Origin: Fulvivirga kasyanovii
GTDB lineage: Bacteria; Bacteroidota; Bacteroidia; Cytophagales; Cyclobacteriaceae
DNA length: 32,469 nt
NCBI RefSeq assembly: GCF_009711405.1
Contig: NZ_SMLW01000638.1
Coordinates: 1 to 32,469, forward strand
Reading direction: 5' to 3'
Shown piece by piece: positions 2,844-19,192 of the stretch. Below the pieces are notes generated by a model, which searched no databases, was not told where the DNA came from, and saw only the letters and a list, made by a program, of their open reading frames with translations. The first letter of the stretch is position 1. Each line of letters starts with the position of its first letter. The translations under genes were made by a program, and so were the position numbers.

Positions 2844-3401
2844 CTAACTATAATTTTCCATCAAAATATATTGTACAGGTACATTTTCAGTAAGCCATAC
2901 GTCGTTGTCTGACCGGTAGAATTCATAGCCATCATTATGCATGGCTTTTGCTTTTATGGTCAGTACTACAGGTTTGCCGTGCCTCTGTCCTACGTTGATA
3001 GCAGTTTCTACATCCAGGCTGAGGTGTACATGGTGCCTCGATCCTTTGCTGATCCCGGTTTTAAATATATTTCCGGTATTCTGCCGGGCTGTTCCGTGAT
3101 AAAGGACCTCTGGTGGTTCAACCGCACAATATCCAAGGTCTACCTGGATAGAGTGCCCCTGGCTGGCCCTGATCCTGGTCCGGTCTTCATTAAACTTAAA
3201 GCGCTTTTTGTTATTGTTCTCTACGATCAGGTTCAGCGTTTCCATGTCGATGCGTTTCTGGCGGGCATTCATTTTTTCCAGAAGCTCGTTAACGTCTGCC
3301 CACCCTTCCTGGTCAAGTTCAAGCCCGATGGTTTCGGGTTTATGTCTTAGTACCAAACTGATAAATTTGCTCAGCCTGGTATGTTGTTTTTCATCTATCA
3401 T
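2844..3401 (-). CDS. kptA: RNA 2'-phosphotransferase (Tpt1/KptA family)
   Basis: KptA/Tpt1 transfers an internal RNA 2'-phosphate to NAD+, giving 2'-OH RNA, ADP-ribose 1''-2'' cyclic phosphate and nicotinamide. The 185-residue length is typical of bacterial members. An N-terminal winged-helix-like lobe begins with TRLSKFISLVLRHKP, and the ADP-ribosyltransferase-like C-terminal lobe carries LYHGT (100-104) and the SRHHVHLS segment (121-128). Arg19-His20, Arg67 (KKRFKF) and Arg122 fit the Arg-His-Arg-Arg active-site set known for the family. Family knowledge: yeast Tpt1 finishes tRNA splicing, but the natural bacterial substrate is not established. No RNA ligase, RtcB or tRNA nucleotidyltransferase gene is next to it here. 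The upstream gap (3402-3926) contains strong potential RNA structure. Confidence 0.95.
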   Translation of the reverse strand: MIDEKQHTRLSKFISLVLRHKPETIGLELDQEGWADVNELLEKMNARQKRIDMETLNLIVENNNKKRFKFNEDRTRIRASQGHSIQVDLGYCAVEPPEVLYHGTARQNTGNIFKTGISKGSRHHVHLSLDVETAINVGQRHGKPVVLTIKAKAMHNDGYEFYRSDNDVWLTENVPVQYILMENYS

Positions 3402-3567
3402 TTTTGTTAATCTTAATTTGTATTTTGTTTTAAACCTTTCTTATTGGCCAGAGGTTTAAATTTCTGCTTACGAAATTTGGATGGTAGGGTTGGGTGAAGC
3501 AGGTTTTTCGAGGTTAATTTCATGATATGCCTAAGGTTAAAGTTATTTTTTATTTAAGGCTAAGGTG

Positions 3568-3638
3568 CCTGCTTTCTAATCTAGCTTGCAGGTTGGGATA
3601 GCAAGCTTTACTAATCCTTAAAGGCTTAGTAAAGCAGG
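3568..3638. repeat. Overlapping inverted repeats with alternative pairings
   Basis: Three perfect inverted repeats compete for the same bases. GCTTTACTAA (3605-3614) pairs with TTAGTAAAGC (3626-3635), and inside that CCT/AGG closes a 3-base loop. AGCTTGC (3583-3589) pairs with GCAAGCT (3601-3607). CCTGCTTT (3568-3575) pairs with AAAGCAGG (3631-3638), enclosing the second. The first pairing excludes the other two. Such an arrangement can be a conformational switch or simply a decayed palindromic repeat; the sequence alone does not decide. Confidence 0.6.
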
Positions 3639-3831
3639 AGTTAACATCGGTTTTCTTTTTAGGAGGGATTCCTGGTATTTTCATTGATTGGCGTTAAAAA
3701 TAACACTTCCGCGGCATTTCAGCTTACATACCCTTCGACATTATACAGACCTGACTTATGAGGTACTCTTAACCTCGGAACTCATTATTAAGTATGCAGT
3801 CAAACGTCTATGCACTGCCATATCCTGGAGG

Positions 3832-3898
3832 CCCTGAATATTTTCTACGAAGTTTTGTAGTGATATTCAAAGTACAAAACAGAAAATTTCAGGGTGAC
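3832..3898. repeat. Nested palindromic intergenic repeat (CCCTGAA...TTTCAGGG type)
   Basis: The outer arms CCCTGAATATTTTC (3832-3845) and GAAAATTTCAGGG (3882-3894) are inverted copies apart from one extra T. The inner arms GTTTTGTA (3852-3859) and TACAAAAC (3873-3880) are perfect. The element ends in GTGACG. A second element with the same arms lies at 21199-21261, so this is a dispersed repeat, probably of the REP/MITE kind. The reverse complement of its right edge, GTCACCCTGAAAT, is also found at 6551-6563. Confidence 0.65.
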
Positions 3899-3926
3899 GG
3901 TTAGGATATTTTTTTAATTATTTCGT

Positions 3927-4178
3927 TCACCTGCTCATACCCCGGTCACGAACGAATTCATCAAACAGTCTCTGTTCCTCTTGCTGCTCTGGTGAAAGGT
4001 CGTCTAGGGTTTTATCGCTCATGCCTATGGGTGAGTAAAACTTCCATTTCCAGATTGGGCGGTGCTTGACGAAGATATGTTTTTCAAAAAATTCGTCGTG
4101 GATATAAACTCCAAGCCAAAACCTGCCTGCTACCACTGCAAGGGTCAACAAACCGAAGATGAGCAACCGTTTTTTCAT
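3927..4178 (-). CDS. Small single-pass membrane protein, unknown function
   Basis: An 83-residue protein starting MKKRLLIFGLLTLAVVAG, which gives one hydrophobic segment at about residues 4-22 that is either a membrane anchor or a signal peptide. The rest is a polar tail rich in Trp, Lys, Glu and Asp, ending in an acidic QQEEQRLFDEFVRDRG stretch. There is no lipobox cysteine and I recognise no family. It begins 20 bases downstream of the DeoR-family regulator stop on the same strand, so the two are probably co-transcribed. That links it in position, not in proven function, to the amino-sugar locus. The good signal-like start and operon position support a real gene, but its small size keeps confidence moderate. 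Confidence 0.6.
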   Translation of the reverse strand: MKKRLLIFGLLTLAVVAGRFWLGVYIHDEFFEKHIFVKHRPIWKWKFYSPIGMSDKTLDDLSPEQQEEQRLFDEFVRDRGMSR

Positions 4179-4198
4179 AAAACAAGGCGGATACCGGC

Positions 4199-4981
4199 CT
4201 ACTCGGCAATGATTACTTCAATATTGTTTTTCTCCAGAAACTCCCTGTCTTCACGCTCTATGTTGCTGTCGGTAATGATTTTGTCTATTTCGCTGAAACC
4301 ACAGATAAAAGCAAGGCCTGACTTTTTGAATTTTGTGGAATCTGCCACTACGATCACTTCATCGGCTATAGTGATCATAATTTGGTTGAGGTACGCCTCC
4401 TCCATGTGGTGGGTGAACACTCCGATTTTGGGCTTAATGGCATCTACGCCCAGAAAGAGCTTATTGCAAAATAGCTGCTTAAAGTTTCTTTCTGCCATTG
4501 GCCCTACCAGCGACATGGAGAACTCTTTCAGGTAGCCGCCGGGCATGAAGACATCTATATTATCGTAATTTGACAGGTTGTTGACAATGTCAAGGGCATT
4601 GCTGATCACAGTAAGCTTTGAGAAGCCACCGAGGTTGTTGGAGATCTCGAAGGTGGTAGTGCCTGAGTCGAGTATAATGCTGTCTTCTTCCTGTATCAGT
4701 GAAGCCGCCTTTTTGCCAATGAGGCGTTTGAGGTCAAGGTTTATCTTCTTTTTTTCAGTTACCGTAAGGGTAATGTTGCTGGTTTTGAAAGCACCGCCAT
4801 GTGCCCGCACAAGGAGCTTGTTCTGCTCCAGCCTGTCCAGGTCATTACGTATGGTAACTTCACTTACGCCGAGAGATTCACTCAGATCATTTACATTGAC
4901 CTGTCCCTTCTCATCCAGAAGTTCTAGTATTTTCGATCTTCTTTCTGCCGTCTTTTTTGTTGCTCCTGTTTTGTCTTTCAT
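4199..4981 (-). CDS. DeoR/GlpR-family transcriptional regulator (AgaR-like)
   Basis: A 260-residue DeoR-family sugar-phosphate-responsive repressor. The N-terminal winged helix-turn-helix (about 14-68) contains RRSKILELLDEKGQVNVNDL and the recognition segment VSEVTIRNDLDRLE followed by RAHGGAF, all standard for the family. The C-terminal DeoRC effector domain, with the NagB-like fold, carries LDSGTTT (103-109), the usual phosphosugar-binding loop, and GVDAI. E. coli AgaR, the repressor of GalNAc catabolism, belongs to this family, and the genes upstream encode that pathway, so an AgaR-like role sensing a pathway sugar phosphate is likely. Its own operators may be the GAAA/TTTC elements at 11514-11548 and 14298-14331. 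It follows the GH109 gene after a strong terminator (5060-5092), so it probably has its own promoter in 4982-5059 or is read at a reduced level. Confidence 0.92.
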   Translation of the reverse strand: MKDKTGATKKTAERRSKILELLDEKGQVNVNDLSESLGVSEVTIRNDLDRLEQNKLLVRAHGGAFKTSNITLTVTEKKKINLDLKRLIGKKAASLIQEEDSIILDSGTTTFEISNNLGGFSKLTVISNALDIVNNLSNYDNIDVFMPGGYLKEFSMSLVGPMAERNFKQLFCNKLFLGVDAIKPKIGVFTHHMEEAYLNQIMITIADEVIVVADSTKFKKSGLAFICGFSEIDKIITDSNIEREDREFLEKNNIEVIIAE

Positions 4982-5059
4982 GTTAAAACATAAATATAGA
5001 GGAATTTTAAGTAACCTTTGGCCATGCTCCTGCGCAATATACCATTAGTGTGAAAAAAC

Positions 5060-5092
5060 AAAAAGAGCTGACCACGAAAGCCGGCTCTTTTT
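5060..5092 (-). terminator. Rho-independent terminator of the amino-sugar operon
   Basis: Perfect 9-base inverted repeat AAAAAGAGC (5060-5068) and GCTCTTTTT (5084-5092) with a 15-base loop. Read on the minus strand it starts 23 bases after the GH109 stop and ends in a run of T, the classic layout. The A and T runs on both sides mean it could work in either direction. It separates the catabolic genes from the regulator gene. Confidence 0.8.
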
Positions 5093-5115
5093 AATCTAAA
5101 CAAACCTTAAACTAT

Positions 5116-6522
5116 TTACTTGATCAGTACATTGGTAGTACCTGCTCCCTGCAGGGAAATGTCTACCGGTGCATTGGTCTTCCATCTGCCTCCGGTAAAA
5201 TCGGGTACATCTATTGACATCGCCCTATTGGCTACAGATTTCTCACTCAGAAGGCCCACGACACTCCATAAGGCCGCATCATAAACATCCTGATCGAGGG
5301 CCAGGCCATTTCTGAGGCAATCTATCAGTCTCCAGTCCATGATGAAGTCCATACCTCCGTGCCCGCCTACCTTTTTGGCCAGGTCTCCCACCTTCTTCAC
5401 AATTTCCGGCGTATACTCTTTCTCCAGTGCATTAAACTCTTTTTCATTAAGCCAGCTATGCCCCTTGGCAACTTTCTCCGGGCCGGGCCATTTTCTGGCA
5501 AACCCTTCCGTGCCGCTTACCAGATGGATCCTGGAATATGGGCGTGGTGAGCTCACATCATGCTGGATCATCATACTTCTCCCCTTTTTGGTCTTGATCA
5601 TGGTGGTATTCATATTGCCCCGGAACTTATTCTGGGCAAATTCCGAGTATGTGCTATCTGTTTGGGCCAGTTCCGCAGCTCTTTGATGCATGGTAAAATC
5701 ATTACTGGAGAGTGATGTCAGGTAATCCATCTGGTCGCCGCGGTTGATGTTCATGATCTGACAAATGGGTCCCAGTCCATGGGTAGGGTACAGATTACCG
5801 TCCCTGTAGGCATTTTCTTTCAGTCTCCACATGCTCTCATAGTAGGTCTTGCTGAAATTAAGGTCTACCAGGTTGTGAATGTAAGCTCCTTCGCCATGAA
5901 TGATCTCTCCAAAGTAGCCTTGACGAGCCATATTCAATGTAAGTAATTCAAAGAAATCATAGCAGCAGTTTTCCAGCATCATGCAGTGTTTCCGCGTTTT
6001 CTCCGAGGTTTCCACCAACTGCCAGCATTCTTCCATGGTCTGGGCGGCAGGTACTTCCACGGCCACATGTTTACCGGCTTCCATGGCATAGACAGCCATC
6101 GGTGTGTGCCACTCCCATGGGGTAACTATATATACAAGATCGATATCATCACGATCTACCAATTCCTTCCAGGAGTAAGCCTTTCCGTAGTAGAGATCAG
6201 GGTTATGCTTGGTGCCCTTGAGCATCTGCTTTGTTTTCTCAGTTGCCTCCTGCCTCAGGTCGCAGAGGGCTTTGATCTCCACGCCTTCTATGTAGCTCAT
6301 CCTTTTAACTGCTCCCGGCCCACGGTTGCCCAGGCCGATGAACCCGATCCTTACCTTATCCATTTTAGGGGCGGCAAAACCGGACATATTGAAACGTTCT
6401 CCCGAGCTTACGGTTTTCATAAGGGTGTTATCCTGCTTATCAAAGGCCATTAACCGGGTTCCCACAAAGCCAAGACCAGCCATAGAGGTAAGCTTGAGAA
6501 AGTTTCTTCTGCTATCTTTCAT
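5116..6522 (-). CDS. GH109-type NAD-dependent alpha-N-acetylgalactosaminidase, Tat-exported (Gfo/Idh/MocA fold)
   Basis: 468 residues. The N-terminus has a twin-arginine signal (SRRNFLKLTSMAGLGFVG), so the folded enzyme is exported with its cofactor. The Rossmann domain begins at VRIGFIGLGNRG with GxGxxG at 63-68. Segments characteristic of GH109 glycosidases are present: TPWEWH (134-139), the MEECW segment after EVPAAQT, MLENCCYD (182-189), YPTHGLGP (245-252) and GGHGGMDF near 393, and a C-terminal VPDFTGG. GH109 enzymes remove alpha-linked GalNAc by a redox mechanism using tightly bound NAD+; the founding member is from Elizabethkingia, also a Bacteroidota. It is the last catabolic gene of the agaS operon, 40 bases after the amidohydrolase, and supports GalNAc as substrate. 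Another Gfo/Idh/MocA activity is possible, but the motif match to GH109 is strong. Conserved GH109 residues were recalled, not aligned. Confidence 0.87.
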   Translation of the reverse strand: MKDSRRNFLKLTSMAGLGFVGTRLMAFDKQDNTLMKTVSSGERFNMSGFAAPKMDKVRIGFIGLGNRGPGAVKRMSYIEGVEIKALCDLRQEATEKTKQMLKGTKHNPDLYYGKAYSWKELVDRDDIDLVYIVTPWEWHTPMAVYAMEAGKHVAVEVPAAQTMEECWQLVETSEKTRKHCMMLENCCYDFFELLTLNMARQGYFGEIIHGEGAYIHNLVDLNFSKTYYESMWRLKENAYRDGNLYPTHGLGPICQIMNINRGDQMDYLTSLSSNDFTMHQRAAELAQTDSTYSEFAQNKFRGNMNTTMIKTKKGRSMMIQHDVSSPRPYSRIHLVSGTEGFARKWPGPEKVAKGHSWLNEKEFNALEKEYTPEIVKKVGDLAKKVGGHGGMDFIMDWRLIDCLRNGLALDQDVYDAALWSVVGLLSEKSVANRAMSIDVPDFTGGRWKTNAPVDISLQGAGTTNVLIK

Positions 6523-6562
6523 TTCTTAATGTGTTTTAAGTTTTGTAATGGTCACCCTGAAA

Positions 6563-7591
6563 TCATTTCGTGGTAACTTTATCTAATGGGTTAAAAATGT
6601 CTTTTTCAAAACCGTATGTGTTTACGGCATTATCTCTGAATATTTTACTCAGCACCTCCTGAGGCAGGGCAAGCCCCCTAAATTCGCCTTCAAATTCCGG
6701 TGCCGTGAGTATCTTATCAGTGGCAAAGAAATCCCAATGCCTCTGCCACAGGTCGCTAAATCTGTCGTTCAATTCCTTGTCTGATAGTGTGCCGTCATCA
6801 ATTACGTCCGTTCCATAAATGACGCGATCCTGATAGCGCATGAAAAAATCGCGCACTTTCTGATGATCATCCCTTGCCTGCAACTGCACATGGCATACAC
6901 GCTCAGCAAGGTCGGTCATGGTGTTGGGGAACCTGTCCAGCAGGCCGGCCACTTCGTGCAGGTCCCATTCCATACTGAAAAGATGGAGACCGACGAATTT
7001 TAGCTCTTTATGCTTTTCAAGTACATTATTCCGGGCTTGCATCTGCTCTTCATACGAAGGGTACTCCGGATGAAGGTGCATATGGTATTCGGGATGCTGC
7101 TCAAAATATTGCCTGTCGGAGTTTACAGTCATTTTATCCAGTGGCAGCCAGCAGTTGCGTGGCTCACCCTGATGACCGATCAGTAATATATTTTTTTCAA
7201 TCAAAAATTTATAAATGGGATCAAACCGCTCGTCATCCATCATTACAAAACGACCCTTTTCGTCTCTAAGCGCCTTGTCCATGCCGATGTTCTTCCACAT
7301 TTTAACACCAACAGCTCCCTTGCTGATGCCATTATTGATCTGTCTCAGGACGTGGACAAGCCACTTATCCGTATTCCAGTACCGGTTGTCGAAACTGGTA
7401 ATGTGGAGTACCCTGCCAGGATAAAGCGCCTGAAGCTCAAGGACAATCTGCTCCTGTTGTTCGAGGCTCTCAAAATCCGGAATGTCTGTATTGATAGATA
7501 AAAAAGCAGCATTGTGCCGGAGCGCCAGCTCCATCTTGGCCCTGGAGGTGGTATTCAAATGTACATGGGCATCAATGAACGATTTCAACAT
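6563..7591 (-). CDS. Amidohydrolase-superfamily (Amidohydrolase_2-like) metal-dependent hydrolase; candidate GalNAc-6-phosphate deacetylase
   Basis: A 342-residue TIM-barrel metal hydrolase. The ligand set is readable in order: HxH at the end of strand 1 (DAHVH, His9 and His11), Lys97 in VGVKMWK, His140 in GHQGEP, His203 in GLHLFS and Asp262 in YGTD. This matches the Amidohydrolase_2 group rather than the NagA/AgaA group of amino-sugar deacetylases. There is no signal peptide, so it acts in the cytoplasm. It overlaps the upstream aldolase gene by 20 bases and belongs to the AgaS/kinase/aldolase operon, where the only missing catalytic step is deacetylation of GalNAc-6-phosphate. I infer it may fill that step. 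Alternatives are hydrolysis of a lactone, a decarboxylation, or removal of another acyl group from a modified sugar. Confidence 0.85.
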   Translation of the reverse strand: MLKSFIDAHVHLNTTSRAKMELALRHNAAFLSINTDIPDFESLEQQEQIVLELQALYPGRVLHITSFDNRYWNTDKWLVHVLRQINNGISKGAVGVKMWKNIGMDKALRDEKGRFVMMDDERFDPIYKFLIEKNILLIGHQGEPRNCWLPLDKMTVNSDRQYFEQHPEYHMHLHPEYPSYEEQMQARNNVLEKHKELKFVGLHLFSMEWDLHEVAGLLDRFPNTMTDLAERVCHVQLQARDDHQKVRDFFMRYQDRVIYGTDVIDDGTLSDKELNDRFSDLWQRHWDFFATDKILTAPEFEGEFRGLALPQEVLSKIFRDNAVNTYGFEKDIFNPLDKVTTK

Positions 7592-8435
7592 CCGACGAAT
7601 TTTTCATGATCTTCAATTTACCTTTTACCAGCTCAGTGATCTGGCCGGTGGCCTTAGGGAATACTTTCCTAAGGTCTATCTCTGCATTGCCAGCCAACTC
7701 CATTTGCAGGGTTTGCATAAATATATTTTTGATTTCCGTGGCCAGGTTCACTTTACATATGCCATTAGAAATAGCTTTTTGGAGCTGATCTTCCGGCACA
7801 CCTGAACCTCCGTGCAAAACAAGGGTTGCCGGTGTGACTTTCGCAATATTGGCGAGTAATTCTATATCAAGCTCCGGTCTTTTTTTATAAAATCCGTGTG
7901 CTGTACCAATCGCAACGGCCAAGGCATCCACTCCGGTAGCTTCCACAAACTGCTTTGCCTCGGCAGGCTGTGTAAAGCCCTGCCTGGCATGCGACTGCCC
8001 AAGTTTGGCTACGTAGCCCAGCTCAGCCTCCACATGAGCCCCATATTGCTCTGCCCTTTTCACCACTTCTCTGGTGATCTTTATATTTTCTTCGAATGGC
8101 AACTCACTACCATCGATCATTACGGAATCAAAGCCGGCATCGAGGCACCGCTGCGCCAGATCCACAGAACCCCCATGATCCAGATGCAGCCACCCTTCTA
8201 CCCCAAACTGCCTGAGGCCGGCTCTTCCAAGCTTAACTGCGGTGTCAAGCCCCATATACTCAATTGAACTTTGTGTAAGTTGTAAAATCAAGGGTTCATT
8301 TAACTCCTGAGCAGCCTTAAGCACACCGTGAAGTGTCTCCAGGTTATAGAAATTGGTAGCCAATAAACCCCGTTTCTGTTTGGTAAAAAGCTGTAGCTTT
8401 TCTTTTATTTTCATCTTACTGCTATTTTGAACCAT
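7572..8435 (-). CDS. Class II aldolase, ketose-bisphosphate type (tagatose-1,6-bisphosphate aldolase-like)
   Basis: A 287-residue zinc-dependent class II aldolase of the FbaA/GatY/KbaY family. Visible active-site features are LHLDHGG with the catalytic Asp86 and zinc ligand His87, VEAELG (Glu136), IGTAHG (His180) and LHGGSG (His208). In the Aga pathway this enzyme splits tagatose-1,6-bisphosphate to glyceraldehyde-3-phosphate and dihydroxyacetone phosphate, and the neighbouring agaS and LacC-like kinase favour tagatose over fructose as substrate. The ATG at 8435 overlaps the upstream kinase stop by 14 bases. An in-frame ATG at 8414 (MKIKEKL) lies 7 bases after that stop and would give a 280-residue protein beginning nearer the usual family start; either is possible. 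It also overlaps the amidohydrolase gene by 20 bases, suggesting translational coupling. Confidence 0.92.
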   Translation of the reverse strand: MVQNSSKMKIKEKLQLFTKQKRGLLATNFYNLETLHGVLKAAQELNEPLILQLTQSSIEYMGLDTAVKLGRAGLRQFGVEGWLHLDHGGSVDLAQRCLDAGFDSVMIDGSELPFEENIKITREVVKRAEQYGAHVEAELGYVAKLGQSHARQGFTQPAEAKQFVEATGVDALAVAIGTAHGFYKKRPELDIELLANIAKVTPATLVLHGGSGVPEDQLQKAISNGICKVNLATEIKNIFMQTLQMELAGNAEIDLRKVFPKATGQITELVKGKLKIMKNSSDVEIVH

Positions 8436-9369
8436 TTTTTAATATTGCCTGCATTCTCTCCTCAAGTGTAGCCCTGTCAGCAAAAGCCCCGGTACCGCCG
8501 GCGGCAGTAGTATTCAAAGCCCCCGCGAGGTTGCCATGTTTCAGGCAATCAGCCAGTGTGGCTCCTTTGAGGCAGTGATGTATAAAACCTGCGTTGAACG
8601 AATCTCCTGCCCCTATGGCATCTACAAACTGAGCGATTTTAAAGGCAGGCATTTCCGTACGTTGGTCGCCGCGAATACCTATGCTCCCCTTCTCCCCCAA
8701 CTTCAAAGCAATGGTGTTGGCATGTGGCATGATCTGTCTCAATGCCTCCTCTGCATTATGGCTACCGGTCAGGGCCAGTAATTCCGCCTCATTAGGAAGA
8801 AAAATATCCACATAGGGCAGACAGGCCTGATGATCAAATTCCCATGTACCGGCCGGATCCCATTGCAGATCGAGAGAGGTAGTTACTCCACATGATTTGG
8901 CTTTTTTGAAAAGCTCAACGATATCATTCCTGAGCTTCTTCTGAATAAAGAAATTGGAAAGGTGCAGGTGTCTGAATTCATGTAAATTATCCCAAGGAAT
9001 ATCTTCCAGACCCAAGGCCTCCATAGCACCGCAAAAGGTAACATTGGCCCTGTCCTGATCGTAGTTCATCACTACGGTAGCCCCTGTTTTATGATTGGGC
9101 GACCTGGTGATCCTGGTGGTATCCACTCCCCTGCCCTGCAACTCCCCAAGGATGTAATCACCAAAATAATCACTCCCCAATTTGCCACAGAAGCTCGTAC
9201 CAGCACCTAATGCGGCTATATTAGAAGCCATGATAGCCGATGAACTCCCCAGGGTCAGCGTCATATCATGGGCCAGTATCTCCTTTCCGATTTCAGGAAC
9301 GGAAGGCATGCCGCTCATAATGAGGTCAACATTCAACTCTCCGACTACAAGAATATCCTTAGCTGCCAT
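8422..9369 (-). CDS. PfkB/ribokinase-family sugar kinase; candidate GalNAc kinase
   Basis: A 315-residue PfkB-family kinase. It opens with ILVVGELNVDLIM, has the LGSSSAIMASN segment (40-50) in the position where ribokinases carry the GG-containing sugar-binding motif, and ends with the anion-hole and catalytic motif DAIGAGDSFNAG, with the base at Asp256. It differs clearly from the LacC/FruK-type kinase encoded next to it (9359-10282), so two kinases with different substrates are present in one operon. The pathway needs exactly two phosphorylations: GalNAc to GalNAc-6-phosphate, and tagatose-6-phosphate to the bisphosphate. By elimination this one is the candidate sugar kinase, because a symporter rather than a PTS brings the sugar in unphosphorylated. 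Its start overlaps the end of the upstream kinase by 11 bases. The exact substrate is inference. Confidence 0.9.
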   Translation of the reverse strand: MAAKDILVVGELNVDLIMSGMPSVPEIGKEILAHDMTLTLGSSSAIMASNIAALGAGTSFCGKLGSDYFGDYILGELQGRGVDTTRITRSPNHKTGATVVMNYDQDRANVTFCGAMEALGLEDIPWDNLHEFRHLHLSNFFIQKKLRNDIVELFKKAKSCGVTTSLDLQWDPAGTWEFDHQACLPYVDIFLPNEAELLALTGSHNAEEALRQIMPHANTIALKLGEKGSIGIRGDQRTEMPAFKIAQFVDAIGAGDSFNAGFIHHCLKGATLADCLKHGNLAGALNTTAAGGTGAFADRATLEERMQAILKNGSK

Positions 9370-10282
9370 AAGCCATTACTTTTACTTTCACGTTTGGTAA
9401 CAGAGATTCCACATCATCTATTTTCAACTGGCCGATGCCCTCAAAAAGGCAGTTGGCCGCGCCGCAGGCTACTGCATACCGCGCAATATCTTCCAATTCA
9501 AAGCCTTTGTGCACTGCATAGGCCATACCCGCCGTGAGGCAATCGCCACTACCCACGGTACTGATCACATGCTCAATATCAACATTCGCATGGACTACCT
9601 GATCATTATAGCTCAGCCATAGTCCATCAGCTCCTTTGGTAATGGCTACCAGCTCTACATGACGACTAAGCATAGCCAGAGCATTTTCAATATTACCAGC
9701 ACCCAGAGCAAGGGCTTCGGTCTCGTTCAAGTGTATTCCGAAAAACCGCTGCTTTATAATAGGGGTAAGCTGAGCGCCGGAGCAATCCACTATAATTTTC
9801 TTCCCGGCACTTTCCGCCAGTTCGATGATCCCGGCACAGGCATTGGCGGGTGCTCCTTGAGGCCATGAGCCCGAAATACAAATGAGGTCGCTCTGAGGAA
9901 ATTGATGATAGCAAACGTCCCTGAAACGGGCATAGCTGCTTTGTGAGAGTTCCGGTCCGGGTTCAAGAAGCTCCGTGTTGTTAAACCGGTCGTCCTGACT
10001 CCTGAAAGTATAGCACTTGCGGCTGGTACCTGACACGGTAATCCCTCCACAGGCTATTCCGGTCTCTTCGCACTTCTGCCTGATCCAACTCCCGCTATAA
10101 CCGGCCCAGATCCCCAGCAAATTGGCATCTACTCCAAGCTCCTTCAGTGCCATGGCCACGTGAGTTCCTTTGCCTCCGGGGTACTCCTGCAATTTACCGA
10201 TACGGTTTACCTGTCCGGATTCCAGTTGCTCCAGCCAGGCATAAGTATCAATAGAAGGATTCGGGCAAATACTCAATATCAT
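9359..10282 (-). CDS. PfkB-family 1-phosphofructokinase/tagatose-6-phosphate kinase (LacC/FruK type)
   Basis: A 307-residue kinase with the LacC/FruK hallmark N-terminus MILSICPNPSIDTY, the GGKG motif at 36-39 (PGGKGTHVAMALKELG) and the C-terminal catalytic motif GSGD at 244-247 (base Asp247). The family phosphorylates ketohexose monophosphates at the remaining terminal position. In this operon the expected reaction is ATP-dependent phosphorylation of tagatose-6-phosphate made by AgaS, producing the aldolase substrate. Its ATG shares bases with the agaS stop in a TAATG arrangement, a common sign of translational coupling, and its 3' end overlaps the next kinase gene by 11 bases. FruK-like activity on fructose-1-phosphate is the main alternative, but no fructose PTS is present. 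Confidence 0.9.
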   Translation of the reverse strand: MILSICPNPSIDTYAWLEQLESGQVNRIGKLQEYPGGKGTHVAMALKELGVDANLLGIWAGYSGSWIRQKCEETGIACGGITVSGTSRKCYTFRSQDDRFNNTELLEPGPELSQSSYARFRDVCYHQFPQSDLICISGSWPQGAPANACAGIIELAESAGKKIIVDCSGAQLTPIIKQRFFGIHLNETEALALGAGNIENALAMLSRHVELVAITKGADGLWLSYNDQVVHANVDIEHVISTVGSGDCLTAGMAYAVHKGFELEDIARYAVACGAANCLFEGIGQLKIDDVESLLPNVKVKVMAYGS

Positions 10283-11421
10283 TATTTCCCTTTTTTGTAA
10301 ATGTTAACTCCTTTCACTACCCTGCTTATCGCTCCGGTAACGGATGGATTATCAGGGTCGAGGCCGAGGCTTAGTGATTTGTAATACCCCAGTAGCTGAC
10401 CAACCAGCGTAACGGGAATAATCTGAAACTGATCTTCCTGATCTGTATTGAGCGATATCCATACTGAATTCGGGATCTCAGGATCTGACAAACCACCTAC
10501 TGAAATTGACCTGATTTGCCTCGGGTCTTCCGCAATGTTTGCTGCAAGGTCCTTTTCGTATTTTAAAACATGGTCGCTGCCCGAAAATAGGTATACCATG
10601 AGTGTTTTATGATTGACCACAGCCCTTGGCCCGTGCCTGAACGCCAGGAAAGAGTCGTGTTTGCATATGACCTGACCGTCGGTGAGTTCCTGTAGCTTAA
10701 GGCTGCACTCTCTGGCTATCCCCAGCATTTCACCCGACCCCAGAAATACTGCACGCTCGAAGTCATCCGCGATGATACCTTCAAGAATGCTCTTATACTC
10801 AAAAATATATTTTGCCTGCTCAACCATTTTATCCAGTATGAGCTTCATTTTATCAAGGTTCTCCATATCTGCAATCAGCAGGATCGTTAACAGCATTGAT
10901 GTAAAGCTGCCTGTCATGGCGAGGCTTTTATCATTGGTTTCTTCCGGAAGCACAAGGCTCAGGGTCTTGCCATTGGAGTACCCTGCCAACCGGCCATCTT
11001 TATTGCAGGTAATGATAAGATGGTAGACATTTTTATAATATTCATCAGCCAGAGTAACGGCTTCCATGCTCTCAGGACTATTGCCTGAGCGGGCAAATGA
11101 AACCAACAGCACCGGGGTACCATTAGTAAATAATACGTCAGGATGTGTTACAATATCAGTAGTTGGAACTGCTATGGTGGTCCTCCGCGTACTTTTCGCC
11201 ACTATACTTTTTGCAGCTTCTCCTAAAAAAGCCGAAGAACCCGCTCCTGAAAGCACAATCCGGAGATCAGGATTTGACAATACCGGCAAAAGGAAATCTG
11301 TTATCTCTTGTCTCTTACCCTCAATAAAACCAAAAACTTTTCTCCATACACGGGGCTGGTTGAAAATTTCGTTTCCCGTGTTGATATCTATCTTTTTATT
11401 ATTAACCGTGTCTATGGACAT
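10282..11421 (-). CDS. agaS: AgaS-type SIS-domain sugar isomerase (galactosamine-6-phosphate deaminase/isomerase)
   Basis: A 379-residue protein with two SIS (sugar isomerase) domains, at about residues 45-190 and 215-360. Diagnostic segments are LSGAGSSAF (58-65), FARSGNSPES (109-118), LGSGEMLGIARECSLKLQEL (227-246) and FRHGPRAVV (261-269), as in AgaS. AgaS converts galactosamine-6-phosphate to tagatose-6-phosphate with release of ammonia, the committed step of GalNAc and galactosamine catabolism. This is the strongest functional anchor in the locus. It is the first gene of the minus-strand operon and is divergent from the symporter gene, with a 231-base shared regulatory gap. A glucosamine-type SIS protein (GlmS or GlmD) is less likely given the length and the neighbouring tagatose-pathway enzymes. 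Confidence 0.93.
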   Translation of the reverse strand: MSIDTVNNKKIDINTGNEIFNQPRVWRKVFGFIEGKRQEITDFLLPVLSNPDLRIVLSGAGSSAFLGEAAKSIVAKSTRRTTIAVPTTDIVTHPDVLFTNGTPVLLVSFARSGNSPESMEAVTLADEYYKNVYHLIITCNKDGRLAGYSNGKTLSLVLPEETNDKSLAMTGSFTSMLLTILLIADMENLDKMKLILDKMVEQAKYIFEYKSILEGIIADDFERAVFLGSGEMLGIARECSLKLQELTDGQVICKHDSFLAFRHGPRAVVNHKTLMVYLFSGSDHVLKYEKDLAANIAEDPRQIRSISVGGLSDPEIPNSVWISLNTDQEDQFQIIPVTLVGQLLGYYKSLSLGLDPDNPSVTGAISRVVKGVNIYKKGK

Positions 11422-11433
11422 ATTCTAATGATT

Positions 11434-11464
11434 CAAAGTATGTATCCGATCGAATTATTTCCAA
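11434..11464 (-). promoter_or_regulatory. Weak candidate promoter for the agaS operon
   Basis: On the minus strand a TACTTTG (plus-strand bases 11434-11440) resembles the Bacteroidota -7 element TAnnTTTG with one base missing between the TA and TTTG parts. A TTG lies 21 bases upstream (complement of 11462-11464). It stands just before the agaS ATG at 11421. Bacteroidota promoters are poorly conserved, so this is only a suggestion. Confidence 0.25.
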
Positions 11465-11513
11465 CAAGCGAGAATCTTCAGCCAATCCATAACCGATCGA
11501 TGTTTCAAATAAA

Positions 11514-11548
11514 AAGAAATAAAACGAAATACAAAAAAGTTTCGTTAT
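11514..11548. promoter_or_regulatory. Operator-like element shared with the susC upstream region (site 1)
   Basis: AAGAAATAAAACGAAA at 11514-11529 is identical over 16 bases to 14298-14313 upstream of susC, and both are followed after a short A-rich spacer by GTTTC(G/A)TTAT. Here AACGAAA (11523-11529) and TTTCGTT (11540-11546) form a perfect inverted repeat with a 10-base spacer. A further conserved CGAAAGATT follows at 11589-11597. Read on the minus strand the element is a run of TTTC-type units, the style I recall for AgaR and other DeoR-family operators. Its place between divergent agaS and symporter genes suits control of both by the DeoR-family protein encoded at 4199-4981. Confidence 0.65.
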
Positions 11549-11652
11549 ATTTATTTTTTATTACTTTTACGACAAACTAACAAAACAACGAAAGATTGAA
11601 AGCTACTTAAGCTTATGTTTATCATTGCATTGCATTAAAAATTCAAACCTGT

Positions 11653-13488
11653 ATGATATCACTTTCCACACTTGATTATATATTATTAGGCAGTTTTTTC
11701 AGCATCACCCTTGTCATAGGCATACTGGTAGCAAGAAAATCAGGAAAAAGCTCATCAGACTATTTTCTTTCAGGGAAAACGATGCCGTGGTGGCTTTTAG
11801 GCCTGTCTATGGTCGCCACCACCTTTTCTACCGACACACCCAACCTTGTTACTGACATTGTGAGAAATAATGGCGTATCCGGCAATTGGGTCTGGTGGGC
11901 TTTTCTACTTACGGGACTGCTTACCGTTTTTATTTATGCCAGATTGTGGAGAAAATCGAATGTAACCACTGACATTGAGTTTTACGAATTGCGCTACGGC
12001 GGCAAACCTGCCCGGTTTCTGCGCGGCTTCAGATCTGTTTACCTGGGGGTGATCTTCAATATTTTAGCCATGTCGGCAGTTACGTTGGCTGCCATTAAAA
12101 TTGGCCAGATCATGCTGGACCTGAGCCCTTTGCAAACGGTAGGTATTGCAGGGCTCGTGACCGTTATTTTCAGTGCTGCAGGTGGTTTTAAAGGTGTTGT
12201 ATATACAGATTTTTTGTTATTCTTTGTCGCGATGGCAGGGAGCATTGGTGCTGCTTACTACTGTGTAAATTTACCGGAGGTAGGCGGCATCAGCCCCTTG
12301 CTTAATCATGAAAATGTAGCCGGCAAACTCAATATACTACCTGACCTGAGTGACACAAATGCTTTAATAACGCTACTAATCATTCCTCTTGCCGTGCAAT
12401 GGTGGAGTGCCTGGTATCCGGGAGCTGAGCCGGGAGGTGGCGGCTATATTGCACAACGGATGCTGGCCGCAAAAAATGAGAACCATGCGGTGGGCGCAAC
12501 CTTTTTCTTCAACATATTACATTATGCCCTGCGTCCATGGCCCTGGATACTGGTTGCACTGGCCTCCCTGGTCCTTTATCCGGATATTGCCAGCATACAA
12601 CAGGCTTTCCCCAACATCAGCCCAGACAAACTGGGCCATGACCTGGCCTACCCCGCCATGCTGACCAAGCTACCCAATGGCCTGCTCGGACTTGTACTTA
12701 CTTCATTGATAGCCGCATACATGTCTACCATCTCCACCCACCTCAATTGGGGCTCTTCTTACATCGTCAATGACTTTTACCTGCAATTCATCGATAAGGA
12801 AGCCTCGCAAAAAAGGCTGGTAGCCGTTGGAAGGGTTTCAACTATATTACTGATGGTTGTAAGTGCAGCATTAGCACTGGTTTTAAACAATGCATTGCAA
12901 CTCTTCAACATCATACTGATGTTTGGGGCCGGCACCGGCCTGATCTTTATTCTACGCTGGTTTTGGTGGCGGATCAACGCCTGGAGTGAGATTATCGCTA
13001 TGTTCTCATCAGGCCTTATTTCAATCTTAATTAATTTCACTTCGCTTGGAACACAACTATTTGGCGGCACATCAGCCGCCGGAGAGCCAATAAATGGCCT
13101 TATGCCTGACTGGGCTGCTTATCCGGTAGTGGTATTGTTCACAACGGCCGCATGGCTGATCACCACACTAGCAACCCGGCCTGAAACTGATCAGACTTTA
13201 TTCAGCTTCTATAAAAAGGTACAGCCGGGAGGCCCGGGATGGAAAAAGATTGTCTCCCACGCGGAGACATCAGGGCACCGCATTAGCTCTTCTGATCAAT
13301 CATGGAGTGTCCCGTCGGGTATTATTGCCATGCTTTTGGGCTGCCTGATCGTTTATGGCGCGCTGTTCGCCACGGGCTATTGGATCTATGGGATGCATAC
13401 CAAAGCCATGATACTTAGCAGTGTGGTCGTTTTTGGCGCGTATCTGCTTTGGAGGGTTTGGAGTAGGATCAAGGAGCGGGTGTTTTAG
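11653..13488 (+). CDS. Sodium:solute symporter (SSS family), probable amino-sugar importer
   Basis: A 611-residue multi-pass inner-membrane protein of the SSS/SLC5 family. Features in order: a first helix LDYILLGSFFSITLVIGILV followed by the typical ARKSGKSSSDYFLSGKTMPWW loop, many hydrophobic segments (about 13-15 by eye), AAGGFKGVVYTDFLLFF near 175-190, the family signature region, and WGSSYIVNDFYLQF near 365-378. The family couples sugar, amino-acid or sialic-acid uptake to the sodium gradient. It is transcribed divergently from agaS with an operator-like element between them and stands before the SusCD genes, so it most likely imports the GalNAc or small oligosaccharide released in the periplasm. 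It delivers an unphosphorylated sugar, consistent with an extra kinase in the operon. The ATG at 11653 fits the start of the first helix. Confidence 0.92.
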   Translation: MISLSTLDYILLGSFFSITLVIGILVARKSGKSSSDYFLSGKTMPWWLLGLSMVATTFSTDTPNLVTDIVRNNGVSGNWVWWAFLLTGLLTVFIYARLWRKSNVTTDIEFYELRYGGKPARFLRGFRSVYLGVIFNILAMSAVTLAAIKIGQIMLDLSPLQTVGIAGLVTVIFSAAGGFKGVVYTDFLLFFVAMAGSIGAAYYCVNLPEVGGISPLLNHENVAGKLNILPDLSDTNALITLLIIPLAVQWWSAWYPGAEPGGGGYIAQRMLAAKNENHAVGATFFFNILHYALRPWPWILVALASLVLYPDIASIQQAFPNISPDKLGHDLAYPAMLTKLPNGLLGLVLTSLIAAYMSTISTHLNWGSSYIVNDFYLQFIDKEASQKRLVAVGRVSTILLMVVSAALALVLNNALQLFNIILMFGAGTGLIFILRWFWWRINAWSEIIAMFSSGLISILINFTSLGTQLFGGTSAAGEPINGLMPDWAAYPVVVLFTTAAWLITTLATRPETDQTLFSFYKKVQPGGPGWKKIVSHAETSGHRISSSDQSWSVPSGIIAMLLGCLIVYGALFATGYWIYGMHTKAMILSSVVVFGAYLLWRVWSRIKERVF

Positions 13489-13528
13489 GGCAGAGATTTC
13501 ATTGTGACCAGGAGAGTGCAGGCAAGTC

Positions 13529-13554
13529 GTAGAGTCCTCTTCGAGAGACTCTAC
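13529..13554. repeat. Hairpin after the symporter gene
   Basis: GTAGAGT (13529-13535) pairs perfectly with ACTCTAC (13548-13554). After one bulged C the stem continues with CTCT/AGAG around a TCG loop. It lies 41 bases after the symporter stop and may end or protect that transcript, although no T run follows. A related, less perfect copy is at 13850-13875. Confidence 0.6.
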
Positions 13555-14047
13555 CCGGAAATCAGTGTTTTGGGATGGTTAGGCTGGCGGAAAACACCCT
13601 CCGGTCTACGACCATCTCCCTCGAGGGAGGAGTTGTGTAGTGCAAGGATTTTGCTTGGTAGAACAAAGGAAAGTTTTGTTTAAGAATATAGAGGCGTCAG
13701 ACCGGTGACATGTCTTATTAGAGATCAAAAAAGAATAACTTTCTGATATTGCAATTAATCCCCAAAAACCCGTCAAAGCCTGTCGAAACACACGTCATTT
13801 GCATAATGTCAGAGGTATGCAAAACTAAAATATTGTGCATCCGAATGCCGTAGATCCCTCTACGAGAGACTCTACTGGGACGTTAGAAGAAGAAATGGTT
13901 AGCGCGACGGAGAACAAGGGAGTTTTGCTGAAGATATAGAAATGTTAAATCGGGCGACATTTCTCGTCGAGTAGTCAAGGAACAACTCTCAGATGTTGTG
14001 ATTTATTCTCCAAATACTCTTCGAATACCCTCGAAACGCCGTGTCTT
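13529..14047. repeat. Two diverged tandem copies of an intergenic repeat unit
   Basis: Copy A (about 13529-13797) and copy B (about 13850-14047) align by eye along their length. Both start with a GTAGA...CTCTAC hairpin, then share ATGGTTAG plus a CGGA/AACA stretch, then a TTTTG...GATATAGA-like stretch (GAATATAGAG in A), a (G)CGACAT/GTGACAT stretch, and a tail of TCAAAGCCTGTCGAAAC in A against ATACCCTCGAAACGCC in B. Copy A has about 60 extra bases including a perfect CTCCCTCGAGGGAG palindrome at 13616-13629. Identity was not computed. Neither copy keeps a convincing reading frame, so a non-coding repeat or a long-decayed duplicated gene fragment are both possible. Confidence 0.5.
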
Positions 14048-14111
14048 CCTGAAATTTTCTTTTGCGCACTCAAAAATCACCACCGGACTTCATAGAAAAT
14101 ATTCAGTATCT

Positions 14112-14203
14112 CCCCGATCGGGGCAGTGCCCGAACTCTGGACTGCACACTTAATCAGGGTATCCCGGATTCTTACCCGACTACCATCGGGGTGCGTCCGG
14201 GAT
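14112..14203. repeat. GC-rich palindromic repeat cluster
   Basis: CCCCGATCGGGG (14112-14123) is a perfect 12-base palindrome. Next, ATCCCGGA (14161-14168) and TCCGGGAT (14196-14203) form perfect outer arms around the near-complementary ACCCGA (14174-14179) and TCGGGGT (14186-14192). The wording ATCCCGGA...TCCGGGATGAC is a style seen in many Bacteroidota intergenic repeats. This stretch is clearly richer in GC than the susC leader right after it. Confidence 0.6.
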
Positions 14204-14297
14204 GACTTGAGTGGGATTGCATTGGAACATCCATACCTCTGGCTTAGTTTATAGCACCAAAGCAAAGCACAACTTTCTTTACTTTCGAATTTGAATA

Positions 14298-14331
14298 AAG
14301 AAATAAAACGAAAGAAAAAAAGTTTCATTAT
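14298..14331. promoter_or_regulatory. Operator-like element upstream of susC (site 2)
   Basis: AAGAAATAAAACGAAA (14298-14313) repeats site 1 (11514-11529) exactly, and GTTTCATTAT (14322-14331) repeats its second half with one change. AACGAAA (14307-14313) and TTTCATT (14323-14329) are an inverted repeat with one mismatch and a 9-base spacer. CGAAAGATT recurs at 14363-14371, as it does after site 1. The surrounding sequences are otherwise unrelated, so conservation points to a shared binding protein, most simply the DeoR-family regulator of the locus. It lies about 180 bases before the susC start, which leaves a long leader. Confidence 0.65.
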
Positions 14332-14508
14332 TTTTTATTAATTCATATTATTTCTATATTGTCGAAAGATTAAGAAAGAATTAAGCGTTTTTAAGGTCTT
14401 GATTTTCAATAAAAAGCAACGAAATAAAAGATTTAAGAAGACAATTACTTTCATAGTCTTTAAAAGGAAAACTTAAAACAACCGATTAATCTTTTAACCC
14501 ATTTGATT

Positions 14509-17432: not shown

Positions 17433-19091
17433 ATGAACAAGATGAAAAAATTATCTCTACTCATATTACTTTCTTCCATCTTCGTGGCTTGTGAGCTTGA
17501 ACGGTTTCCGTACGACTCCGTAGCCTCGGAAGAGTTATTTGAAAACGAAGGCGGCCTGGAGTCAGCAACTTTGGGCACTTATGCCATTCTTAAGGGTGAT
17601 GCTGATGGCAATGGTTTCGCGCCTCAATTATTCAGGCTCAGTGAATATCCGGGAGACAATGTGTCTTTAAGCGGAAACACGACCGACCCGCTCTTCTATT
17701 CTTATAACTATCAGAATATAACCACTAACAACCGGTCAAACAACATGTGGACGGCGGCATATCAGGCAGTAGTGGGCTGCAATAAAGTGATAGAGCTGGC
17801 GCAGGAAGGTGAATCTCCGGAAAGAGACCAATTGATCGGTGAAAATTATTATCTCCGTGCCCTTATTTATTTTCAGATGGTCAACATTTACGGAAGGCCG
17901 TACAGCCAGGGTACTGAAAACCTTGGAGTGCCCTTAAAACTAACTTCTGAAATTGATGATTTGCCTGACAGGCATACTGTAGGCCAGGTATACGAACAGA
18001 TCGTAAAAGACCTGCTAAAAGCTGAGGTGCTGATGACTATACCCAAAACCAATGCATATGCTACCAAAGAGGCTGCCCAGGCACTGCTTTCAAGGGTGTT
18101 TCTTTACATGGAGGATAACCAAAGGGCAATCGACTATGCAGATAAGGTAATTGCTTCAGGGAATTACAGCCTGATCCCTAATTCGAACCTGGAAGATTAC
18201 TTTAAACTGGCACCAGAGGATAACTCTGAAACCATATTCTGCTTCAGGTACCAGGAAGAGTCGGACTACAACCATGGCTGGTATACGGTGGGTTCTCTTT
18301 TTGCCAACATCAAAGGTACGGGTTGGGGAGAAATGTACGCCTCAAGCACTTACCTCGACCTGATCAACAGGCACCCGGAAGACGCCCGGAAAGGGTTTAT
18401 TGATCCACAGTACATCCTGGATGACAATGGGGATAAGATACCCGTCGTTTACTGGGTTGATGCGGATTATAAATATCAGTTCAGGCTTACTTTTGAAGAC
18501 GGCGGCTCAACATTCTTTACAGATAATAATGTCGATTACGAAGTGCAGTCTGAAGAGGTCAATGGGCGCACGCTTCATTTCTACATCAATGCTTCTGCGG
18601 AAAAAGTATACGTCACCAAAGGCTATGACCTGTATAAGCGTAATGGTTTTCCTAAGTTCTACGTTCTCAAAACTTCGCTCCAGGAGGATGTGGCCCAGCT
18701 TTGGTCCCCGGTAGTTTCTAGGCTTGGGGAGATGTACCTGAACAAAGCTGAGGCTTATGCTAAAATGGGTGATGATGCCCTGGCTCTTGAAAATATCAAC
18801 ATCATCAGGGAAAGGGCCGGTATACCTGCATACAATGGCGTAGGTGAACTTCCGGCCGGCACTACTGTGCTGGATGCTGTACTGGAAGAGCGCAGGCTTG
18901 AACTGGCTTTTGAAGGCCATAGAAAATTCGATGTTTTCAGAAACAACAGAACGATGAACAGAAGTTATCCGGGTTCTCACCTGAACGGAAGCAATCCGTA
19001 CTACCAGGTATTGCCCACCGATGATCGTGTAATAGAGTACATCCCTGAAAGCCAGATCATCGTACAGCCTACGCTGAAACAGAATGATTAA
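17433..19091 (+). CDS. susD: SusD/RagB-type glycan-binding outer-membrane lipoprotein
   Basis: A 552-residue lipoprotein that caps the SusC channel and binds glycan at the cell surface. The signal MNKMKKLSLLILLSSIFVAC has a lipobox with the lipidated cysteine at residue 20. SusD-family features follow: an N-terminal ACELERFPYDSVASEELFEN region, the helical TPR-like part with NYYLRALIYFQMVNIYGRPY (about 135-155), and the conserved C-terminal part with LYLNKAEAYAKMGD-like and LEERRLELAFEGHRKFDVFR (about 485-505). It follows susC by 8 bases on the same strand, the normal arrangement. A strong hairpin lies 30 bases after its stop and may set different expression of the following lipoprotein gene. 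Confidence 0.96.
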   Translation: MNKMKKLSLLILLSSIFVACELERFPYDSVASEELFENEGGLESATLGTYAILKGDADGNGFAPQLFRLSEYPGDNVSLSGNTTDPLFYSYNYQNITTNNRSNNMWTAAYQAVVGCNKVIELAQEGESPERDQLIGENYYLRALIYFQMVNIYGRPYSQGTENLGVPLKLTSEIDDLPDRHTVGQVYEQIVKDLLKAEVLMTIPKTNAYATKEAAQALLSRVFLYMEDNQRAIDYADKVIASGNYSLIPNSNLEDYFKLAPEDNSETIFCFRYQEESDYNHGWYTVGSLFANIKGTGWGEMYASSTYLDLINRHPEDARKGFIDPQYILDDNGDKIPVVYWVDADYKYQFRLTFEDGGSTFFTDNNVDYEVQSEEVNGRTLHFYINASAEKVYVTKGYDLYKRNGFPKFYVLKTSLQEDVAQLWSPVVSRLGEMYLNKAEAYAKMGDDALALENINIIRERAGIPAYNGVGELPAGTTVLDAVLEERRLELAFEGHRKFDVFRNNRTMNRSYPGSHLNGSNPYYQVLPTDDRVIEYIPESQIIVQPTLKQND

Positions 19092-19121: not shown

Positions 19122-19174
19122 GGTTGCCTGACTGACATTTCTATCACTTGATAAGAAAGATCAGTCGGGCAACC
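19122..19174 (+). promoter_or_regulatory. Long near-perfect hairpin between susD and the following lipoprotein gene
   Basis: GGTTGCCTGACTGA (19122-19135) pairs with TCAGTCGGGCAACC (19161-19174) over 14 positions, with one G-U wobble in RNA. Inside, TTTC/GAAA and TATCA/TGATA continue the stem to a very short loop, so about 53 bases fold almost entirely on themselves. No T run follows, so it is not a standard terminator. It could be a partial terminator, an RNA-stability or processing site, or a leftover repeat. It ends 18 bases before the next ATG. Confidence 0.7.
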
Positions 19175-19192
19175 TTCACAAACCTATTTACC

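Follow-up and report, generated by a model that had tools for sequence, protein, structure and literature searches.

A candidate Amidohydro_2-family de-N-acetylase in an N-acetylgalactosamine operon of Fulvivirga kasyanovii

Gene content of the agaS operon

The window, i.e. the whole 32,469-nt stretch of DNA analysed here, is contig C48 of a draft genome of 7.17 Mb in 680 contigs. A run of seven genes lies on its minus strand in the order agaS, PfkB2, PfkB1, class II aldolase, AMH2, GH109 and agaR, where AMH2 denotes the Amidohydro_2-type gene under study. The features are as follows.

2844-3401, minus strand: Tpt1/KptA RNA 2'-phosphotransferase gene (PF01885, 184 bits)
4199-4981, minus strand: AgaR-type DeoR regulator (NF040755 AgaR, 266.5 bits, above the cut-off of 260)
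5116-6522, minus strand: GH109-type alpha-N-acetylgalactosaminidase (PF21252, 150 bits)
6563-7591, minus strand: AMH2, Amidohydro_2 (PF04909) candidate GalNAc-pathway de-N-acetylase; ATG at 7591, stop codon ending at 6563, 342 aa
6806-6808, minus strand: Asp262 codon (metal-site/catalytic type), ahead of the I264-D265-D266 loop that characterises the cytosolic form
6983-6985, minus strand: codon of His203, metal-site type
7172-7174, minus strand: codon of His140, metal-site type
7559-7567, minus strand: codons of His9 to His11, HxH metal motif
7572-8435, minus strand: class II aldolase, tagatose/fructose-1,6-bisphosphate type (PF01116, 292 bits)
8422-9369, minus strand: PfkB1, ribokinase-like kinase, candidate GalNAc or GalN kinase
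9359-10282, minus strand: PfkB2, LacC/1-PFK-like kinase, candidate tagatose-6-phosphate kinase (PDB 2awd)
10282-11421, minus strand: AgaS-like SIS-domain protein, galactosamine-6-phosphate deaminase/isomerase type (TIGR02815, PDB 3odp)
11653-13488, plus strand: SSF sodium:solute symporter (PF00474, 111 bits), a candidate sugar importer that diverges from the operon
14503-17424, plus strand: SusC-like TonB-dependent receptor
17433-19091, plus strand: SusD-like protein
19148-21004, plus strand: DUF5077/DUF3472/F5_F8 C-type protein

A preliminary description of this DNA had placed an Amidohydrolase_2-type ORF beside AgaS, two kinases and a class II aldolase, and this arrangement was borne out, with the AgaS-like protein, two PfkB kinases and the aldolase all in the same gene run. 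The first five genes, with AMH2 the fifth, overlap in succession by 1 to 20 nt. The largest overlap, 20 nt (7572-7591), lies between the aldolase gene and AMH2, so the translational coupling asserted previously is plausible. GH109 starts 40 nt past AMH2. A promoter and terminator scan of positions 3400-14600 was uninformative, as counts matched those in shuffled sequence (18 vs 18.9; 11 vs 10.7).

The AgaS-like protein scored 351 bits against TIGR02815 (cut-off 529), and 395/395 phylum genomes were likewise below this cut-off. It matched PDB 3odp at 266 bits, and its best PDB relatives are annotated as putative tagatose-6-phosphate isomerases. The top PDB match of PfkB2 was the tagatose-6-phosphate kinase 2awd (113 bits), with a fructose-1-phosphate kinase at 112 bits, and for the aldolase, fructose-bisphosphate aldolases and the tagatose-bisphosphate aldolase AgaY (1gvf) scored alike. 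Fructose-phosphate kinases and fructose-bisphosphate aldolases cannot be told apart by similarity from the kinase and aldolase of the window; in related operons, the presence of GatZ/KbaZ-like or LacD-like partners favours the tagatose route.

The GH109-type protein belongs to that family, scoring 341 bits against 6t2b (GH109) and 244 against the alpha-N-acetylgalactosaminidase 2ixa, and its N-terminus carries SRRNFLK, which we take to be a twin-arginine-like motif. Its position beside AMH2 implies an acetylated sugar. GH109 homologues (at least 40% identity) occurred in 20/50 aga-linked cytosolic AMH2 operons. The preliminary description had mentioned neither this protein, encoded directly downstream, nor two NagB-PIG-L fusions found elsewhere in the genome. 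Homologues of the DUF5077/DUF3472/F5_F8 C-type protein (at least 40% identity) were present on 12/50 aga-linked loci; this protein recurs in GalNAc-type clusters and possibly acts on GalNAc-containing glycans.

Fold, active site and distribution of AMH2

PF04909 was the sole model in Pfam and NCBIfam to recognise AMH2, at 45.4 bits (gathering cut-off 26.4); no NCBIfam model, TIGR00221 included, matched at E 0.001. The same Pfam model was matched at E 0.001 or better by 54/54 members of an alignment comprising the window AMH2 and 53 of the best 80 of 537 named loci. PDB sequence searches, with AMH2 itself and with its profile, returned no credible relative. The metal site, previously described as intact, was present in full, H9, H11, H140, H203 and D262 each being conserved in at least 97% of 93 sequences (46 cytosolic and 47 exported, window included). 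AMH2 is a real, conserved and uncharacterised gene. Its product is predicted to be cytosolic, since no signal peptide was seen at the N-terminus. An Amidohydro_2 paralogue in the same genome (contig C260, 28% identity) was set aside, as it has an exported-looking N-terminus and none of the window-operon genes nearby.

The structure model built from these 54 sequences shows an amidohydrolase fold with high confidence (pLDDT 93.6, pTM 0.91). The top Foldseek ranks were IDCase, ACMSD, LigY and LigJ (best E 5e-9, 10-13% identity), i.e. TIM-barrel matches to the ACMSD-like branch with probability 1.00, TM of about 0.45-0.5 and rmsd of 7 and more. A putative pyrone-dicarboxylate hydrolase was also among the nearest folds, whilst hydantoinase, uronate isomerase and dihydroorotase ranked below the ACMSD-type folds. 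NagA structures (PDB 3iv8 and 1ymy) were found at lower ranks (E 2-3e-4), and comparison of the AMH2 profile with an alignment of nine NagA sequences (hhalign) gave a probability of 0.5%, i.e. no profile-level homology. On the basis of this Foldseek ranking and the null profile comparison, AMH2 as modelled belongs to the ACMSD-like branch of the amidohydrolase superfamily and is not a NagA.

The absence of NagA/AgaA from the operon, noted previously, was confirmed and extends to the genome. Nothing there exceeded 32 bits against TIGR00221, whose cut-off is 225.65, and that score came from parts of longer ORFs; no NagA hidden elsewhere in the genome turned up. A single-contig genome of the same genus (G014) carries the same operon, with an AMH2 92% identical to that of the window and the same neighbour genes, and likewise no NagA was found in it. 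A named-genome scan retained the best 80 of 537 AMH2 loci, and among these, agaS was in the same operon in 27/31 loci with at least 52% identity (L052-L081, L112). This conservation, together with the identical neighbours in G014, argues that the AMH2-agaS arrangement is not due to chance. The four other loci are L063 and L064, where the gene run stops at a contig end, L065 and L076. In the Leeuwenhoekiella genomes bearing L064, L065 and L076, a cytosolic AMH2 was kept and agaS was not found at E 1e-20; a 34-residue aldolase match directly before AMH2 in L064 suggests that an operon was lost there.

Co-occurrence with agaS, proposed earlier as a check, was observed among 395 phylum genomes: agaS occurred in 21, AMH2 in 19 and both in 17 (Fisher p 3.6e-24, kinship ignored; thresholds of at least 150 bits for agaS and at least 240 bits for AMH2, chosen on seeing the lists). 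Four of the 21 genomes with agaS had no AMH2 at this threshold (G066, G202, G213 and G336), of which only G213 had NagA. The companion expectation, that AMH2 and NagA/AgaA avoid each other, did not hold as a phylum-wide rule. NagA (E 1e-20) was found in 70/395 genomes: 3/17 with agaS and AMH2, 1/4 with agaS only and 66/374 without agaS. In G226 and G257, NagA, AMH2 and agaS share one contig. In the named genomes (44 of the best 80 of 537 loci were queried and L062 was left out), 18/43 were positive for NagA at E 1e-10. Where the aga operon holds a cytosolic AMH2, NagA was detected in 9/29 genomes and absent in 20/29; it was detected in 5/10 genomes with AMH2 outside such an operon and in 4/4 with only an exported AMH2 in one (L093, L109, L121 and L123); the difference between 4/4 and 9/29 gave a Fisher value of 0.017, kinship ignored. 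Genomes with both cytosolic and exported copies (L084, L097) were counted as cytosolic, and L074 and G327, which have identical AMH2, belong to different surveys.

Operon position, co-occurrence with agaS, the lack of NagA, the lack of a NagA alignment and the ACMSD-like fold make a non-orthologous GalNAc-pathway deacetylase the best reading of AMH2. Counting against it, decarboxylases, hydratases and a C-C hydrolase make up its nearest folds, with amide hydrolases further down. The Leeuwenhoekiella genomes with AMH2 and no agaS found, the four genomes with agaS and no AMH2, and G226 and G257 with NagA on the same contig also weigh against this reading. We therefore consider AMH2 a probable cytosolic de-N-acetylase of the GalNAc operon that fills the place of NagA/AgaA, an assignment made from context and with its substrates inferred. 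In the proposed pathway, GH109 would free GalNAc outside the cytosol and the SusCD proteins and SSF carrier would import it. AMH2 and PfkB1 would then jointly convert GalNAc to galactosamine-6-phosphate, in either order. AgaS would turn this into tagatose-6-phosphate, which PfkB2 would phosphorylate before the class II aldolase splits the product.

Cytosolic and exported forms and the competing readings

We extended each AMH2 homologue to its start and applied a simple hydropathy rule for signal peptides, leaving out rows with less than 34% identity or fewer than 250 aligned residues. Copies in aga operons mostly lacked a signal, whereas other copies mostly had a lipoprotein-like one. The 112 rows comprised 51 cytosolic in aga operons, 14 cytosolic elsewhere or at contig edges, 7 exported in aga operons (on six loci) and 40 exported elsewhere or at edges. 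In a quick tree of 111 rows (L099, with ambiguous letters, was left out here and from the column comparison), localisation changed six times, and all 47/47 exported rows fell in one 53-row clade (SH-aLRT 100), the remaining 6 rows of which were called cytosolic. One locus, L180, bears an AMH2 at 35% identity.

The preliminary description had named GalNAc-6-phosphate as the substrate. The replacement of AgaA within the pathway stood, on position, co-occurrence, NagA absence and the neighbouring GH109; the preference for the phosphorylated over the free sugar found no support, as exported relatives keep the invariant residues. Residues conserved at 97% or more across both forms include H9, H11, K97, K100, H140, E143, W148, R187, H203, E208, R231 and D262, to which the cytosolic form adds A8, T35, F40, E230, I264, D265 and D266. 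A check for a phosphate pocket had also been suggested, and the column comparison of 46 cytosolic with 47 exported sequences (L083, L097_9938, L177 and L178 left out of the cytosolic set) gave no clear pocket residue specific to the cytosolic form: no basic residue was specific to it at the chosen cut. The nearest case was H234, a column 100% basic in the cytosolic form vs 74% in the exported.

These patterns bear on the order of steps. Within the deacetylase reading, one tentative refinement is that deacetylation comes first, with AMH2 acting on free GalNAc and PfkB1 serving as a galactosamine kinase; this runs counter to the GalNAc-6-phosphate substrate named previously. All 47 exported rows of the clade would reside outside the cytosol, where sugar phosphates are unexpected, and the sister clade nevertheless keeps K97, K100, R187, R231, E208, H140, H203 and D262, so the substrate is perhaps free GalNAc. 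Consistent with this, the seven exported copies on six loci sit inside aga operons, the conserved residues that set the cytosolic form apart near D262 are acidic (D265 and D266), and the GSS.AI core of PfkB1 (G41, S42, S43, A45 and I46) is conserved at 93% or more over 60 rows, drawn from operons whose AMH2 is cytosolic or exported and from three that have none (L170, L173 and L175). One genome, G066, has agaS and PfkB1 with neither AMH2 nor NagA above threshold in a search that covered those two. Taken from sequence comparison, the conservation of these residues and of PfkB1 is mild evidence that AMH2 may see unphosphorylated GalNAc. Against this, the presence of NagA in all four genomes with an exported-only AMH2 aga operon suggests that NagA may do the job there, with a different role for the exported copy. 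Conservation of H234, R160 and H166 is somewhat higher in the cytosolic form, K97, K100, R187 or R231 could bind phosphate, the signal peptides rest on the hydropathy rule, and G336 (L175), which has no AMH2 or NagA, has a distant (25% identity) Amidohydro_2 protein beside PfkB1. A wider and somewhat doubtful proposal is that of a new amidohydrolase-superfamily family of GalNAc de-N-acetylases acting on the free sugar. Its members would be cytosolic where they belong to agaS operons and exported in the sister clade, and would define a GalNAc route in Bacteroidota and Balneolota in which deacetylation precedes phosphorylation.

The surroundings of exported copies outside aga operons were varied. 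Seven of the 40 rows (4 loci: L046, L095, L105 and L124) had GH109 (at least 40% identity) in the operon and no agaS on the locus. Other neighbours without agaS nearby were a Melibiase (L098) and PALP with abhydrolase (L092), and members of an AP_endonuc_2-type cluster (L100, L105, L110, L113, L115, L120 and L126). This periplasmic context possibly involves other amino sugars, and the substrates of exported AMH2 may have drifted. The operon of L123 also contains an M20 peptidase-family gene. A cluster of nine members, with Melibiase domains in the two representatives scanned, recurred both next to certain exported copies and within certain agaS clusters. In several GalNAc-type clusters, the gene next to PfkB1 or to the aldolase belongs to a second, distant Amidohydro_2-type subfamily (22-25% identical; L174:17931-19031, L175:1619-2707, L087:5660-6754 and L082:17723-18799), and in L082, L087 and L175 this gene adjoins a member of the Melibiase-type cluster (L082 assigned without a Pfam scan).

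That AMH2 is no deacetylase at all, but a lactonase, hydratase or decarboxylase, or else an enzyme whose substrate is a keto-sugar produced by Gfo/Idh/MocA proteins (GH109 relatives, for example), is fairly unlikely. The nearest folds (IDCase, ACMSD, LigY, LigJ and the putative pyrone-dicarboxylate hydrolase) would suit such chemistry, as would the AP_endonuc_2 TIM-barrel cluster (one member scanned) beside exported relatives in 7/40 rows (7 loci) and the exported AMH2 of L123, whose operon holds Gfo/Idh/MocA and 3-keto-disaccharide hydrolase genes. However, the aldolase route encoded by the cytosolic operon is nearly complete and has its deacetylation step unassigned, and the GH109 family releases an acetylated sugar. 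The fold itself permits deacetylation, because NagA also belongs to the amidohydrolase superfamily.

An unlikely alternative assigns the deacetylation of GalNAc-6-phosphate to the PIG-L domain of a NagB-PIG-L fusion, or to another PIG-L protein, and a different reaction to AMH2. On the point of another deacetylase in the genome, raised in the preliminary description, no NagA homologue was found and two such fusions were (656 and 645 aa, PF01182 and PF02585; contigs C154 and C353, L264:6464-8431 minus and L265:6850-8784 plus). One lies in an evident GlcNAc cluster with a ROK kinase and GH20, identified by Pfam, and a symporter and SusCD-like proteins, identified by size and sequence, so the GlcNAc arm also appears to run without NagA. 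This cluster also contains a DUF5009 gene. A PIG-L match in a 600-700 aa frame was present in 13/20 NagA-lacking named genomes with the operon. It was absent, however, from the other 7/20 (four Echinicola, two Belliella and Litoribacter ruber; G463, G465, G467, G471, G473, G474 and G491), whose PIG-L proteins were limited to lengths of about 220-260 and 824-844 aa. Apart from these proteins, AMH2 was the only candidate found there in a search that covered NagA and PIG-L, and no PIG-L gene was seen among the identified operon members, whose neighbours were scanned in part. The Echinicola loci L267, L268 and L269 have a stand-alone NagB of 276-285 aa, and neither NagA nor a NagB-PIG-L fusion was found in their genomes.

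Reported phenotypes formed a small and mixed set. Galbibacter kalidii EGI 63066 is reported as using N-acetyl-D-galactosamine and as negative for N-acetylglucosamine assimilation (PMC13166967). Its locus (L052) carries agaS, PfkB1, the aldolase, AMH2 (68% identical), GH109 and agaR, with PfkB2 absent from the locus, and its genome has two NagB-PIG-L fusions and no NagA that we could find. With two fusions present and PfkB2 missing, this phenotype cannot be credited to AMH2 in particular; the phenotypes establish no more than reported GalNAc use in the absence of a detected NagA. GlcNAc phenotypes and NagA matches agreed in 3/5 cases: G. kalidii, and the GlcNAc-negative G. orientalis and Robertkochia solimangrovi, in whose genomes no NagA was found. 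The two disagreements were G. marinus (L054), listed as GlcNAc-positive though no NagA was found, and G. pacificus, GlcNAc-negative in strain CMA-7 with a NagA-like match of 184 bits in the genome of strain CAA-3.

Significance and comparison with known enzymes

GalNAc catabolism is usually called from AgaS together with AgaA/NagA. Should AMH2 supply the deacetylation, such rules would be overlooking a GalNAc pathway in many environmental Bacteroidota, and new chemistry would be defined within the Amidohydro_2 family. An enzyme that selectively de-N-acetylates GalNAc, especially in exported form, could serve work on glycans and the blood-group A antigen, for which other enzymes are in use. A study of 397 human gut genomes reported the GalNAc pathway from Actinobacteria, Firmicutes and Proteobacteria only (PMC5583593).

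Among the matches listed in a search of open PMC titles and abstract starts, none described an Amidohydro_2 GalNAc deacetylase. Shewanella AgaA-II is tabulated as a novel GalNAc-pathway enzyme alongside AgaK and AgaS (PMC2996990). By this listing, AgaA-II has a place in the pathway for which AMH2 is a candidate. The NagB-PIG-L fusion (NF002557) resembles AMH2 as a possible NagA-free deacetylase in the same genome, its activity being assumed, and differs in its unrelated Pfam family (PF02585) and in its location, one copy lying in the GlcNAc-type cluster, outside the agaS operon.

NagA/AgaA (TIGR00221), the N-acetylhexosamine-6-phosphate deacetylases of CAZy family CE9, have the superfamily fold and the proposed pathway step in common with AMH2, but AMH2 lacks profile similarity to them and has H9, H11, H140, H203 and D262 as its metal-type set. 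The closest structural likeness is to ACMSD, LigY, LigJ and IDCase, which belong to PF04909 as AMH2 does, and AMH2 has the metal-site pattern of ACMSD (HxH, His, His, Asp). These enzymes act on carboxylated aromatics or dicarboxylic acids, and we know of no amide hydrolysis on sugars in the ACMSD-like branch. They share the fold of AMH2 at 10-13% identity, whereas AMH2 itself is found in GalNAc operons.
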